Shown: positions 16,301 through 20,722 of the stretch, in pieces
Layout: each line of letters opens with the position of its first letter
Position numbering within the stretch: position 1 is the first letter of the stretch
DNA from: Acidaminococcus hominis
GTDB taxonomy: Bacteria; Bacillota; Negativicutes; Acidaminococcales; Acidaminococcaceae
DNA: 64,000 nt
NCBI RefSeq assembly: GCF_900291475.1
Contig: NZ_OLMM01000004.1
Coordinates: forward strand, 186,001-250,000
Direction: 5' to 3'
Notes under the pieces: model-generated
Databases searched by the model: none
What the model was told of the DNA's origin: nothing
Seen by the model: the letters and a program-made list of their open reading frames with translations, nothing else
Program-made: the position numbers and the translations under genes

Positions 16301-16840
16301 TTAGGATTTTTGGCCATTTTTTGTAGCAAAAATTTTTAATTTTCCATGAAAATTTAACATACTGTTACGATTTTTCCACTCTGTGCTAGATTCTGTCCAT
16401 TGAAAAGTGCCAGGTTCCTGCTCCCACAGCTGGTGGAACAACAGCAATTGGGTGTAATCCCCCTCCAGAGCCAGGGACAGGGGCAGGTACGTTCCCCCCG
16501 CTTCCCGGCCGGGAGCCTGGGCTTCCAGAGAAAGCAGACGCACCCCGCTTTCCCGGCACAGGGCTTCCAGCCGGCTGACGGCTTCTTCCCGGGTCACCTG
16601 GTCCGGCACCTGCCGGCGCAGCTGCTGCCACTGCTCTTCCGTCTGGGCGGCTGTTCCAGGGTCATACCGTTTGGCAAAAAGCACCAGCTGCCGCTGCCGC
16701 TCCTCCAGGCCCAGCAGCTTATGCCGCTCCAGCCGAAGCTGGGTCAGGGCCGGGCGAAAGGCCAAAACCAGGAAGGCCAGCCATAGGCACAGGTGCAGGG
16801 CCAGTCGGATTTTGGGGTCCCGTTTCAGGTTAGCCAGCAT
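16301..16840 (-). CDS. PilO/GspM-like pilus assembly protein
   Basis: 179 aa: a short cytoplasmic N-terminus, one membrane helix (about residues 12-30, LALHLCLWLAFLVLAFRPAL), a coiled-coil-like segment rich in Q, R and E, then a small alpha/beta periplasmic domain (SGVRLLSLEAQAP ... YLPLSLALEGDYTQLLLFHQ). This is the layout of PilO and GspM, inner-membrane assembly proteins of type IV pili and type II secretion. It overlaps the PilD/M/N fusion gene by 11 bp, so translation is coupled, and it is the last gene before a new promoter. The family call rests on architecture and context; sequence identity to PilO is low. Confidence 0.7.
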   Translation of the reverse strand: MLANLKRDPKIRLALHLCLWLAFLVLAFRPALTQLRLERHKLLGLEERQRQLVLFAKRYDPGTAAQTEEQWQQLRRQVPDQVTREEAVSRLEALCRESGVRLLSLEAQAPGREAGGTYLPLSLALEGDYTQLLLFHQLWEQEPGTFQWTESSTEWKNRNSMLNFHGKLKIFATKNGQKS

Positions 16841-19187
16841 AGCTGCCGCCTCCCTTCAGCTGAAGCCGGATCCGGAAACCCGCCGTCCGGTCCTTGGCCC
16901 CGTCTTCCTCCAGTCGTTCCAGCTGGGCGTCGCTGATGCCGGGCTGATGCTGGAGCAGGTCCACCAGCCTGAGGACGCTGTTTTTCTCCAGGGTCCGGCC
17001 TTCCAGCACCACCCCAGGCGCCTGCACCGCTTCCCCGTCCCCTTCCTGGGTCACCCGGGTTACCCAGCAGTCCGCCGGCACCAGGCTGCCCAAAAGGGCC
17101 AATAGTCCAGCCCAGGGCAGCTGTTTTTGCTGCACCTTCTGCCGGAGCTGGCTCCGGGCCTCCAGGTCCGCCTTGCGGCTCAGGCTGGTCTGCCACTGGG
17201 CTTCCCAGGGTGCCAGGGCCGCCAAATGCCTTTGGGTTTCTCCCAGCCGCCAGGCAGTGCCCAGCCGCAGCAGCTGGCAAAAAACCAAGCCGCAAAAGCC
17301 CAGACCCCAAAGCAGGGTAAACCCCCGTTTCTGGGACAGCCGCCCCAGGGACGGCTGGGCTCCCGCAGTCCGGTGGAGGGACAGCTTTCTCGTGTGGAGA
17401 CAGGGTTTGGCCGCCCCCAGGGAGCAGAGGATTTCCGGCTGGGAAAGCAGTTCTTCCCCCCTGGCATAGGCTTCTGCCACCGTAACCTTGTCCAGGCCCG
17501 GCAGAGGCCGCAGCAGCCCCCGTTTCTGGAGCAGGGGCTGGAGCTCCTGGCCCAAAGGCTCCCCGCCGCCCAGGGCCGCATAAAGGGGCAGCGCCGCAAG
17601 TCCCAGCTCCTGCCGCCACAGCTCTGCATAGGCAGCAATCTGCTGGGCTGCCTGCTGGCCAGACTCCTGAAAAGTCCCCTGCGCCTCCTGCCACAGGGGG
17701 CTTTTGGTCAGCTCCTCCGCCCCCGTTTTCTCTTTTTCCGCAAGGGCCAGGGGCTCACTGTCCACAGGAATCCCCCGCTGCAGCACGGTGAGGACAAAGC
17801 GCTTCCCTTCTTTGGTAAGCAGCAGCGCCCCCGGTTCCTCCGTCAGCCATTTGCCCCAGCTGGCCGCCTGGGCTTCCAGGCTCACCAGTTCCCAGTCCAG
17901 TGCCGCTGCCAGGTCCAGCAGGGCCTGATTCAGGGCCTTGGACTGGAGCAGCACCGCCGTATTATTGCTTTTGAGCTGCACCGGAACCGCGGCGGCCGTA
18001 AAGGTGCCGGGCTTCCAGGGTACGTCCTGCAAAAGGCCCCACTGGGCCGCTTCCGCCAGGTTTTTCGCCGCTGCCTGGGGCAGGCTGGCCCGGCGCAGCA
18101 GCACCTGCCGGCTGGACAGGCTAAAGCTCACCTGCCCCGCCCCAAAGCCCCGCTTCCGGCACTGGTCCCCCAGCCATTCGGCTACGGCAGGGACCTGTTC
18201 CGGACTGGTAAGCGCCGGCAGTTCCCGGGGCCAGGGCAGCTGGGCCGTACGGGCAAGGTGCAGCTTTTCTCCCCGGCGCTCCGTTTCCGTCAGGGTCAGA
18301 GCCTGGTTTCCCCAGTGGACCACCAGGAGCCGCTTGGGCCAGGGGGAAACCAGTTTTTCCCAACGGCTGCGCAGGTTGTCCCAGGAAAGGGTTTGCTCCA
18401 GGGGCAGCAGCCCCAGCAGCAAAAGCCCCGGGTCCAGCGCCGACGGCAGCGTTCCCACCACCCCTTTACAATGCACCAGAAAGGCTCCCAGGGCCAAAAA
18501 AGGAGCCAGGGGAACACCCACCTTTTCCAGAGCCAGCTTTTTCTCCCGGGCACGGGACAGGGCCCAGCCCAGGCTCAGCAGGTTCCCCAGCACAATGCAT
18601 TGGAACCCTTTCAAAGGTCCCAGCCAAGCTCCCAAAAGGGAACACAAAAGCACGTCCCCAAACCCCAGACCCTGGGGAAAAATCAAATGAAACACCAGCA
18701 GGAAACCGCCGCCGGCCAAAACCCCAAAAAGCCCTTCCAGCAGCGTTCCCCCTACCAAAAAACAGCGCAGGGCAATCCACCCGGCCAAGGCCAGCAGCAC
18801 GCAGTGGTACACCGCCCGTTCTCGCAGGTCCTGCCAGACGATAAGGTACAGGGTGCCGAAGATACCCCACAGGGTAAAAAGCTGCCAGCCGGGAACCTGG
18901 CCCCAGCCCAACAGCAGAAACAGCAGGCCGCAGCCTAGTTCCTGATACAGCAGGTCCCGGGAAAGGGGCGTCCGGCAGTAGCCGCAGCGGCCTTTCCGGT
19001 ACAAATAGCTTACCACCGGCACCAGGTCCTTTGGGCCCAGTCTTCTGCCGCAGGCCTCGCAATGGGACGGCGGCCAGCAGATGGACACCCCGTTTTTCAT
19101 CCGGTCCGCGCACAGTCCCACAAAACTGCCGGCACAAAGGCCGGTGAGAAAATAGATGATTCCATAAAAAACATTTACTCCCATCAT
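16830..19187 (-). CDS. Fusion of prepilin peptidase, PilM-like and PilN-like domains
   Basis: 785 aa in one uninterrupted frame from ATG 19187 (GGGGAGGAC upstream). Residues 1-265 are an A24 prepilin peptidase: GSFVGLCADRM, zinc cysteines C43/C46/C68/C71, catalytic Asp candidates D120 (WQDLRERAV) and D178 (GLGFGDVLL), and several membrane helices. Residues about 280-560 resemble PilM/GspL (KRLLVVHWGNQALTLTETER, LSSRQVLLRRASLPQAAAKN). Residues about 625-785 resemble PilN: a membrane helix (LLWGLGFCGLVFCQLL), then a coiled-coil-like and a small periplasmic domain. These are normally three proteins. No methionine codon occurs near the domain joins. It follows comM by 8 bp and overlaps the PilO-like gene. 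Confidence 0.75.
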   Translation of the reverse strand: MMGVNVFYGIIYFLTGLCAGSFVGLCADRMKNGVSICWPPSHCEACGRRLGPKDLVPVVSYLYRKGRCGYCRTPLSRDLLYQELGCGLLFLLLGWGQVPGWQLFTLWGIFGTLYLIVWQDLRERAVYHCVLLALAGWIALRCFLVGGTLLEGLFGVLAGGGFLLVFHLIFPQGLGFGDVLLCSLLGAWLGPLKGFQCIVLGNLLSLGWALSRAREKKLALEKVGVPLAPFLALGAFLVHCKGVVGTLPSALDPGLLLLGLLPLEQTLSWDNLRSRWEKLVSPWPKRLLVVHWGNQALTLTETERRGEKLHLARTAQLPWPRELPALTSPEQVPAVAEWLGDQCRKRGFGAGQVSFSLSSRQVLLRRASLPQAAAKNLAEAAQWGLLQDVPWKPGTFTAAAVPVQLKSNNTAVLLQSKALNQALLDLAAALDWELVSLEAQAASWGKWLTEEPGALLLTKEGKRFVLTVLQRGIPVDSEPLALAEKEKTGAEELTKSPLWQEAQGTFQESGQQAAQQIAAYAELWRQELGLAALPLYAALGGGEPLGQELQPLLQKRGLLRPLPGLDKVTVAEAYARGEELLSQPEILCSLGAAKPCLHTRKLSLHRTAGAQPSLGRLSQKRGFTLLWGLGFCGLVFCQLLRLGTAWRLGETQRHLAALAPWEAQWQTSLSRKADLEARSQLRQKVQQKQLPWAGLLALLGSLVPADCWVTRVTQEGDGEAVQAPGVVLEGRTLEKNSVLRLVDLLQHQPGISDAQLERLEEDGAKDRTAGFRIRLQLKGGGSYAG

Positions 19188-19195
19188 GTCCTCCC

Positions 19196-20722
19196 CTACC
19201 CTTGGATACTGGTGCGCAGCTGGATGGCTTCCCCCAAATGGGTGACGGTAATTATGGGACTTTTCGCCAAATCCGCAATGGTCCGTGCCACCTTGATAAT
19301 CCGGTCGTGGCTGCGGGCGCTGAGCCCCAGAGCCACAAAGTACCGCTCCAGCAGGGCTTCCGCTTCCGGGGTCATGGGACAAAAGGCCTTCACTTCCCGG
19401 CGTCCCATACTGGCGTTGCAGTACAGGTGGGTGCCTTTAAGGCGCTGCCGCTGGATTTCCCGGGCCGCCACCACCCGCTGCCGGATTACGGCAGAGGATT
19501 CTTCCTTCTTATCGCTTTTCAGTTCCTGGTATTGCAGCCGGGGTACGTGAATCTGGATATCGATCCGGTCCAGCAGCGGCCCGGAAATCTTCTTCCGGTA
19601 GCGGGCAATATCCCCGGGCCGGCAGGAACACTGGTGCACCTTGTCCTCCTCTCCCCAAAACCCACAGGGACAGGGATTCTGGGCCGCCACCAGAATGAAC
19701 CGGGCCGGATAGGTCAGGGAAGCCTGGACCCGGCTGATGGTCACCATTCCGTCCTCCAGGGGCTGGCGCAGGACCTCCAGGGCGCTTCTTGAAAATTCCG
19801 GTAATTCATCTAAAAACAATACCCCGTGGTGACTCAGGGTCACTTCCCCAGGATGGGGAATGGTGCCGCCCCCAATCAGGGCGCTTTGGGACACCGTATG
19901 GTGGGGGCTGCGAAAGGGCCGCTCGCTGATAATGCCGCTGCGCCGCTTCAGCAGTCCGGAGATGCTGTAGATTTTCGTTACCTCCAGGGCTTCCTCCTCC
20001 GTCATAGGCGGCAGAATGGTGGGCAGACGCCGGGCCAGCATGGTTTTCCCGGCTCCGGGAGCCCCCACCATCAGCACGTTGTGGCCCCCGGCCGCAGCAA
20101 TTTCCATGGCCCGTTTGGCCACCACCTGCCCCTGGACGTCAGCAAAGTCCACGCTGTTGTCCTCCGGGTTTTCCAGCTGGAGAGGCTCCTTCTCCAAAGG
20201 TTCCAAAAGCTCCTTGCCCTGAAGATGGTCCACCAGTTCCAGCAGGGTTTTCGCCGTAAACACCTGGATGCCGTCCACCAGCTTCCCTTCCTGGGCATTG
20301 CCCCGGGGGATGTAGATGGTGTCCCGGCCTTCTTCCCGGGCCCGGAGAATCATGGGCAGAATGCCGCTGATGGGCCGCAGGCTGCCGTCCAGGGCCAGTT
20401 CTCCGGCAAAGACCGGAGGATTGTCCTCCGGCAGCTTGATATGCTGTTTGGCTGCCAGGATGCCCAGGGCAATGGGCAGGTCCAGGCCGGAGCCGTCCTT
20501 TTTCAGGTCCGCCGGCGCCAGATTTACCGTAATGTGGGTATCGGGAAAGTAGAACCCGGTGTTTTTCACCGCCGCCTTTACCCGTTCCTTGGACTCCTTT
20601 ACCGCCGTATCCGGCAGTCCCACCATTTCAAAGGCGGGCAGGCCGTTGGCCACATCCACTTCCACGGCCACCATTTCTCCGTTAATGCCTCGGGTGGTTT
20701 CCCCCCATGTGCGTGCATACAT
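19196..20722 (-). CDS. comM: YifB/ComM family Mg-chelatase-like AAA+ ATPase
   Basis: 508 aa, full length. Residues 1-170 form the Lon-like N-terminal domain (NGLPAFEMVGLPDTAVKESK). The AAA+ core shows Walker A GAPGAGKTML, Walker B VLFLDELPEF and the C-terminal Mg-chelatase domain with GPLLDRIDIQIHV. In Gram-negative bacteria ComM is a helicase acting in branch migration during natural transformation; Firmicute YifB is presumed similar. Here it sits directly upstream of pilus-assembly genes, which fits a link with competence pili (inference). Confidence 0.93.
   Translation of the reverse strand: MYARTWGETTRGINGEMVAVEVDVANGLPAFEMVGLPDTAVKESKERVKAAVKNTGFYFPDTHITVNLAPADLKKDGSGLDLPIALGILAAKQHIKLPEDNPPVFAGELALDGSLRPISGILPMILRAREEGRDTIYIPRGNAQEGKLVDGIQVFTAKTLLELVDHLQGKELLEPLEKEPLQLENPEDNSVDFADVQGQVVAKRAMEIAAAGGHNVLMVGAPGAGKTMLARRLPTILPPMTEEEALEVTKIYSISGLLKRRSGIISERPFRSPHHTVSQSALIGGGTIPHPGEVTLSHHGVLFLDELPEFSRSALEVLRQPLEDGMVTISRVQASLTYPARFILVAAQNPCPCGFWGEEDKVHQCSCRPGDIARYRKKISGPLLDRIDIQIHVPRLQYQELKSDKKEESSAVIRQRVVAAREIQRQRLKGTHLYCNASMGRREVKAFCPMTPEAEALLERYFVALGLSARSHDRIIKVARTIADLAKSPIITVTHLGEAIQLRTSIQG

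Follow-up and report, generated by a model that had tools for sequence, protein, structure and literature searches.

The 64,000-nucleotide (nt) window analysed here, from Acidaminococcus hominis (assembly GCF_900291475.1, contig NZ_OLMM01000004.1, positions 186,001 to 250,000), carries a gene (16830..19187, on the minus strand, as are all window features given below) in which a prepilin peptidase, a PilM-like domain and a PilN domain are joined in one protein of 785 amino acids (aa). The frame runs without a stop through 785 codons, from 19187 to 16830, and starts with ATG ATG at 19187 behind the purine-rich stretch aggggaggac. Within a sample of nine genomes, from nine species, of the gut bacterium Acidaminococcus (G000, the source genome, to G008), peptidase, PilM-like domain and PilN share one frame in five (G000, G003, G005, G007 and G008), among which G003 and G007 correspond to named records of Acidaminococcus massiliensis and Acidaminococcus fermentans; in the other four genomes (G001, G002, G004 and G006) the peptidase is a gene of its own beside a PilM–PilN gene. 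An earlier note, made from the letters of the window, had proposed three domains in one frame, and this holds, given the 785-aa open reading frame (ORF), the Pfam matches for peptidase and PilN, and the hhalign result for the PilM-like part.

The N-terminal part is, judged by its family domains and active-site residues, an A24 prepilin peptidase. The A24_N domain (A24_N_bact, PF06750; aa 14–95, 18903..19148) is matched at E 8.5e-23, with 80.7 bits against a cut-off of 23, and carries the zinc cysteines C43, C46, C68 and C71; the Peptidase_A24 domain (PF01478; aa 110–208, 18564..18860) is matched at E 1.9e-6, with 28.7 bits against a cut-off of 26.5, and carries the catalytic residues D120 and D178, the second within the GxGD motif. 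These six residues, together with G175 and G177, are kept in all 16 aligned peptidases, and all eight catalytic, zinc and GxGD positions are intact in each of the five fused species, which bears out the complete enzyme with four zinc cysteines and two aspartates that the earlier note had described. The loop preceding the last peptidase helix is altered in the fusion: aligned with unfused relatives, it carries insertions of about 3 to 8 residues. Since no A24 peptidase besides the fused one was detected in the source genome (one match each to PF01478 and PF06750), the fused protein should process pilins, if pilins are processed, and very likely does so while tethered to the rest of the chain.

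The middle of the protein (aa ~285–610, 17358..18335) is matched by no Pfam model, PilM_2 (PF11104) included, and is PilM-like by profile–profile comparison: the five fused sequences align with 13 stand-alone PilM proteins at 99.7% and E 1.6e-25 over 311 columns (hhalign), and all 13 of these match PF11104. A profile in which the same 13 PilMs make up 13 of the 14 rows matches four solved PilM sequences in the Protein Data Bank (PDB; E 7e-69 to 4e-45); the profile of the fused five alone reaches a PDB PilM at E 0.16 only. The D..G....K motif, which we take to be the actin-like nucleotide-binding signature of PilM, is invariant in the 13 stand-alone proteins and is not conserved in the fusion, the lysine position being changed in all nine Acidaminococcus genomes and the aspartate in eight (it is kept in G002). 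By these residues the PilM-like part looks no longer able to bind ATP, and in this respect it is similar to the cytoplasmic portion of GspL, which serves as a scaffold. Outside the genus the signature is likewise missing from two fused PilM–PilN proteins (G018 and G030), and three others (G009, G026 and G035) retain the aspartate.

The chain ends in a part that is PilN by its PF05137 match (aa 695–776; E 4.5e-8, 33.5 bits against a cut-off of 22.8) and by the membrane helix before it, a hydrophobic stretch at aa ~634–655 that was read by eye; membrane segment and periplasmic part together span 16833..17288. With a PilM-like part, a transmembrane (TM) segment and a PilN-like part in one chain, beside a GspM/PilO-like gene, the protein has the build of GspL/PulL, which to our knowledge has no N-terminal prepilin peptidase. 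No NCBIfam model matches the 785-aa protein up to E 1, nor does any GspL model of Pfam; moreover, the type II secretion system (T2SS) context of GspL is replaced here by ComM and the PilO-like gene as neighbours. PulL/GspL has itself been described as a fusion of PilM–PilN type, and the peptidase PulO is listed as a separate component in Table 1 of the same source (PMC10191384). A PilM–PilN fusion is also reported from Clostridioides difficile, the accessible part of that paper mentioning no peptidase join (PMC6916266). Compared with PilD/ComC, the N-terminal part is alike in its A24_N and Peptidase_A24 domains, four cysteines, two aspartates and (in a weak model) eight long helices, and differs in that its C terminus runs on into PilM–PilN rather than ending. 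The earlier note had treated all three parts as separate proteins in known systems, which does not hold for PilM and PilN, found in one chain in GspL, in C. difficile, in other Negativicutes and in all nine Acidaminococcus genomes; only the peptidase join is uncommon. No description of a prepilin peptidase joined to PilM–PilN was found in the literature searched, as far as its texts were accessible, and we therefore regard the peptidase at the N terminus as new, as far as our searches went.

The join itself is made by a linker (aa 240–284, 18336..18470) that connects the last peptidase helix with the PilM-like domain and is 45–49 aa long in the five fused species. In G000 it contains a short hydrophobic core, LLLLGLLPL, and then a basic stretch ending in PWP; its mean pairwise identity among the five species is 0.26, with 3% gaps; the corresponding values are 0.53 and 0.43 for the two peptidase halves, 0.43 and 0.32 for the N- and C-terminal halves of PilM, 0.31 around the PilN helix and 0.48 for PilN. 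Because shuffled linkers remain open in 0.115–0.313 of trials, an open linker in one genome would be unsurprising, and the weight of the case rests, as we read the sequences, on joint occurrence, near-constant linker length and loss of the PilM start rather than on openness in a single genome. In all four unfused congeners PilM begins with an ATG 15 codons before the domain, behind a Shine–Dalgarno-like stretch that is clear in three and weak in G002. In none of the five fused linkers do the 60 nt preceding PWP contain an in-frame ATG; with the linker open and no ATG nearby, both the peptidase stop and PilM's own start have been lost in the fused species. The G000 linker has no ATG anywhere, as the earlier note had said of the peptidase–PilM join in this genome. 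The separate genes of the four congeners might suggest that a frameshift or misassembly had joined two genes artificially, an explanation to which we give practically no credence and which we rule out, since the same join occurs in five separate assemblies, including the single-contig G008 and those of the A. massiliensis and A. fermentans records.

Separate genes with clear starts in close relatives, which the earlier note had counted against the fusion, are thus present for the peptidase join in four of the nine genomes; the phylogeny nevertheless sets the fused species apart as a derived clade, and the fusion stands. Maximum-likelihood analysis of the four domains in 21 genomes splits the five fused species from the 16 others with a support of 99, and with the tree rooted on G038 the four unfused congeners form the sister group of the fused five. 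The tree used 21 of 40 loci and was built from the same proteins that are being compared, with G000 on a long branch and the peptidase of G013 represented by the best of three fragments; it fits a single origin of the peptidase join. In G006, an unfused congener, the peptidase stop and the PilM start share one frame and the inter-domain distance is 150 nt, as in three fused species, so that the loss of one stop codon in a G006-like ancestor would suffice.

Beyond the genus, a PF06750 search of 380 genomes of the class found matches in 79, with only five frames above 350 aa, all of them Acidaminococcus, and the next longest at 347 aa; the fusion, which the earlier note had proposed seeking in other Acidaminococcaceae, a family that fits the source genus, thus occurs in five of nine Acidaminococcus genomes and nowhere else among the A24_N peptidases matched in these genomes of the class, peptidases without the A24_N half being invisible to this search. 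At 13 loci with such an A24_N-less peptidase (L079, L080, L085–L090 and L092–L096) the peptidase frame lies apart from PilM. A sample of 398 genomes of the phylum, 291 of them with a match, gave no frame above 336 aa among the matches listed, which reach E 7.8e-35 against E 4.8e-24 for the query's own row and are therefore uninformative for fusions this diverged. By contrast with the peptidase join, PilM and PilN share one frame outside the genus too (G009, G018, G026, G030, G035 and G039, and, with shorter PilM matches, G020, G023, G024, G031–G034 and G036). The possibility that the joins are all of one age is ruled out by this wider spread of the PilM–PilN fusion, and only the peptidase join is peculiar to the fused clade. 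At five loci outside the genus (L072, L073, L074, L075 and L091) the same four domains occur in the same order as neighbouring genes. A conserved type IV pilus locus of Negativicutes has been published (PMC5007114). Where other Negativicutes have separate peptidase, pilM, pilN and pilO genes, PilM keeps the D and K of the signature, and the genomes scored have a long PilB and a PilT-length ATPase, unlike Acidaminococcus.

As the earlier note had supposed, the other pilus genes lie outside this locus, and by family matches the parts of a type IV pilus machine (PilB, PilC, secretin and pilin) co-occur in the source genome. It has one PilB (C7:604167) and one secretin (C7:602265), paired at C7:602–605 kb, and one PilC with an adjoining N_methyl pilin at C7:906–907 kb, the frames of all four being open; four more ORFs after the pilin, judged solely by eye, resemble minor pilins. 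Upstream of the secretin lies a 164-aa ORF that matches no Pfam model and carries an RDPF stretch reminiscent of PilP. The T2SSE search detected no second ATPase above cut-off in G000–G003, G005 and G006 and no PilT-length ATPase in any of the nine genomes, an absence that is weaker for G001 (90% complete) and G006 (85%); in G004 a 767-aa frame gives an additional, marginal match. Of the 16 genomes searched from the family's other genera (G009–G024), 13 have a second T2SSE of 329–365 aa. Alone among the nine, G007 (C2/C21) and G008 (C1:1308852–1316079) carry what is probably a Tad pilus set: an extra T2SSE, an extra secretin and two T2SSF genes of a single domain each.

The PilB protein appears to have changed together with PilM. 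Its frame is 421–458 aa in the nine Acidaminococcus genomes, the ATPase domain of G000 beginning at aa 29, and a short PilB (407–458 aa) accompanies fused PilM–PilN in all 14 genomes scored as such, against a long PilB (559–626 aa) in all eight scored with separate PilM and PilN; the species are related and not independent, and the comparison is uncorrected for phylogeny. It left out G011, G014, G015, G020, G021 and G022, which have a cut or fragmented match or no PilM–PilN call, as well as G016, which has no PilB, and of the class-level genomes it covered those in which both loci had been read. The two long PilBs examined have a long extra N-terminal stretch, which by eye we take to be of the GspE N-terminal type. 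A domain of this type is described as the contact of PilB homologues with PilM homologues (PMC8389850), and the short PilB beside fused PilM–PilN suggests a joint loss of the PilB–PilM contact.

Considering these data together, we think it probable that the gene is a derived fusion of one Acidaminococcus clade, whose single product serves as enzyme and scaffold in a secretin-bearing pilus. We suggest that a GspL-like scaffold of PilM and PilN gained the upstream peptidase through loss of the peptidase stop and of the PilM start. The product would probably be a single inner-membrane protein, with an N-terminal eight-helix A24 peptidase/methylase and a short linker, then a cytoplasmic PilM-like scaffold, a further membrane helix and, in the periplasm, the PilN domain; the helix after PilM would put the PilN domain outside, where it could pair with the PilO-like protein. 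Such a fusion would cut and methylate prepilins and would also be part of the platform on which PilB, PilC and the secretin assemble. The machine would be a type IV pilus with a secretin, for which no retraction ATPase was detected and which probably belongs to the DNA-uptake type; its platform would be simplified, one fused protein being both enzyme and scaffold. That there is one uncleaved protein, and what its topology, activity and pilus role are, we infer from sequence comparison, and the fixed 1:1 ratio of peptidase to platform that the earlier note had proposed would hold only if the protein is uncut and no internal start is used.

Several observations weigh against this interpretation. 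In G003 a GGAGG followed by an in-frame TTG stands just before PilM, and in G005 an in-frame GTG/TTG does so; in-frame ATGs occur farther upstream in the linkers of G003, G007 and G008, by which a single-protein reading is slightly weakened. These possible starts, together with the poor conservation of the linker and the existence of both halves as separate genes in the unfused congeners, would suit a fused frame that nevertheless yields two proteins, the peptidase being freed by an internal start or by proteolysis in the linker and the fusion serving mainly for translational coupling. We regard this as unlikely, given that G000 and G008 have, in the 60 nt before PWP, neither an in-frame ATG, GTG or TTG nor any of the four Shine–Dalgarno-like motifs searched for, that the G000 linker is devoid of ATG, and that linker length is held within 45–49 aa. 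It also counts against our interpretation that four of the nine congeners manage without the fusion, and that the fused protein diverges fast: the other fused proteins are 29–32% identical to that of G000, compared with 84–90% for ComM (the G003 ComM match spanning residues 213–508 only), which could mean relaxed selection. Together with the lost PilM signature, the short PilB, the lack of a detected PilT and the broken genes of some family relatives (for example the G013 peptidase, in three frames), this divergence speaks for a near-neutral fusion in a decaying pilus system, in which loss of a stop was tolerated in a machine little used. Such decay seems to us a quite improbable account, however, since none of the eight checked catalytic, zinc and GxGD positions has changed in any of the five fused species, these five have diverged and still share the open frame, and the PilB, PilC, secretin and pilin frames are open in G000.

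The structural predictions and the topology of the join add to these difficulties for an enzyme–scaffold protein. For the whole protein AlphaFold2, run with an alignment of three rows (those of the window, A. massiliensis and A. fermentans), gave a mean predicted local distance difference test (pLDDT) score of only 37.7, and for the first 328 residues a mean of 59.5; the latter, weak model has eight long helices, after which it is unstructured over the hydrophobic core of the linker and then passes through one short helix into the initial strands of PilM. A Foldseek search of the PDB with this 328-residue model returned nothing at E ≤ 0.001, and by sequence the peptidase matched no PDB entry up to E 1. 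The published topology of prepilin peptidases has eight TM segments and four cytoplasmic loops (PMC10191384), from which it may be deduced that both ends of the peptidase lie outside; PilM is expected inside, and an extra or partial crossing would thus be needed between the two. A hydropathy threshold is exceeded within the linker in G000 and, by a narrow margin, in G007, and is not reached in G003, G005 or G008, so that an ordinary ninth helix is not evident. Some segments of such peptidases may not fully cross the membrane (PMC10191384). Two arrangements would thus be conceivable, a linker stretch that spans the membrane or dips into it, or a last peptidase helix that spans it incompletely; the arginines that directly follow this helix in G007 and G008 would suit an incomplete crossing.

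If the fused protein does work as enzyme and scaffold at once, it is conceivable, though we hold it to be rather doubtful, that the pilus base has a built-in peptidase ring, with one peptidase per scaffold subunit and prepilins cut and methylated at the assembly site, for which an altered or extra membrane crossing where the peptidase ends would be required. Prepilin peptidases are described as acting alone and needing no other pilus protein (PMC10191384); were the ring to exist, a normally solitary peptidase would have become a structural part of the machine. Whether prepilin processing is spatially coupled to assembly is a hard question to pose in standard systems, and a protein in which nature has joined peptidase and scaffold covalently, together with near relatives in which they are apart, offers a ready comparison as well as a testable topology problem. 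Additionally, the fusion may stand at one end of a stepwise simplification in which PilM and PilN were fused, the signature was lost, PilB became short, PilT went missing and the peptidase was fused; the joining of PilM and PilN would precede that of the peptidase, and the rest of the order is a guess.

Regarding the neighbouring genes, the fusion is followed by a 179-aa ORF (16301..16840) that overlaps its end by 11 nt, in agreement with the directly adjoining, overlapping PilO-like gene of the earlier note. Its matches to PF04350 PilO (E 8.5e-4, 19.9 bits against a cut-off of 22) and PF10741 T2SSM_b (E 0.01, 16.2 bits against 21.7) fall below cut-off; a PilO profile built from this protein and its relatives reaches 1.4e-39, with the protein itself included, and it is on its relatives' profile only that we call the ORF PilO-like. 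Upstream, after a gap of 8 nt, lies a gene for a ComM/YifB-type Mg-chelatase-like protein (19196..20722; PF01078, PF13541, PF13335), which adjoins the peptidase on its upstream side in all nine Acidaminococcus loci and has no match in the five loci of other genera that were tested. Rates are very uneven within this one probable operon, between ComM and the fused pilus protein. The competence pilus at which the earlier note had hinted gains support from a ComEC-type gene (PF03772) in all nine Acidaminococcus genomes, the constant presence of ComM upstream and the lack of a detected PilT, but the case is still circumstantial.

Finally, some minor observations concern the relatives and the pilin cluster. 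At the 13 loci with an A24_N-less peptidase, the peptidase match lacks the first ~45–90 profile positions, and the zinc/methylase half seems to have been lost repeatedly in the family to which these loci belong; G026 and G035 are among the genomes without a PF06750 match. The G013 peptidase (L078) is matched in three frames and the PilM of G021 (L071) in two, reflecting either decayed genes or assembly errors. The last ORF of the G000 pilin cluster (L083:8931–9791, on C7; 287 aa) has a weak Ice_binding-like match, at E 0.0095 and below cut-off.

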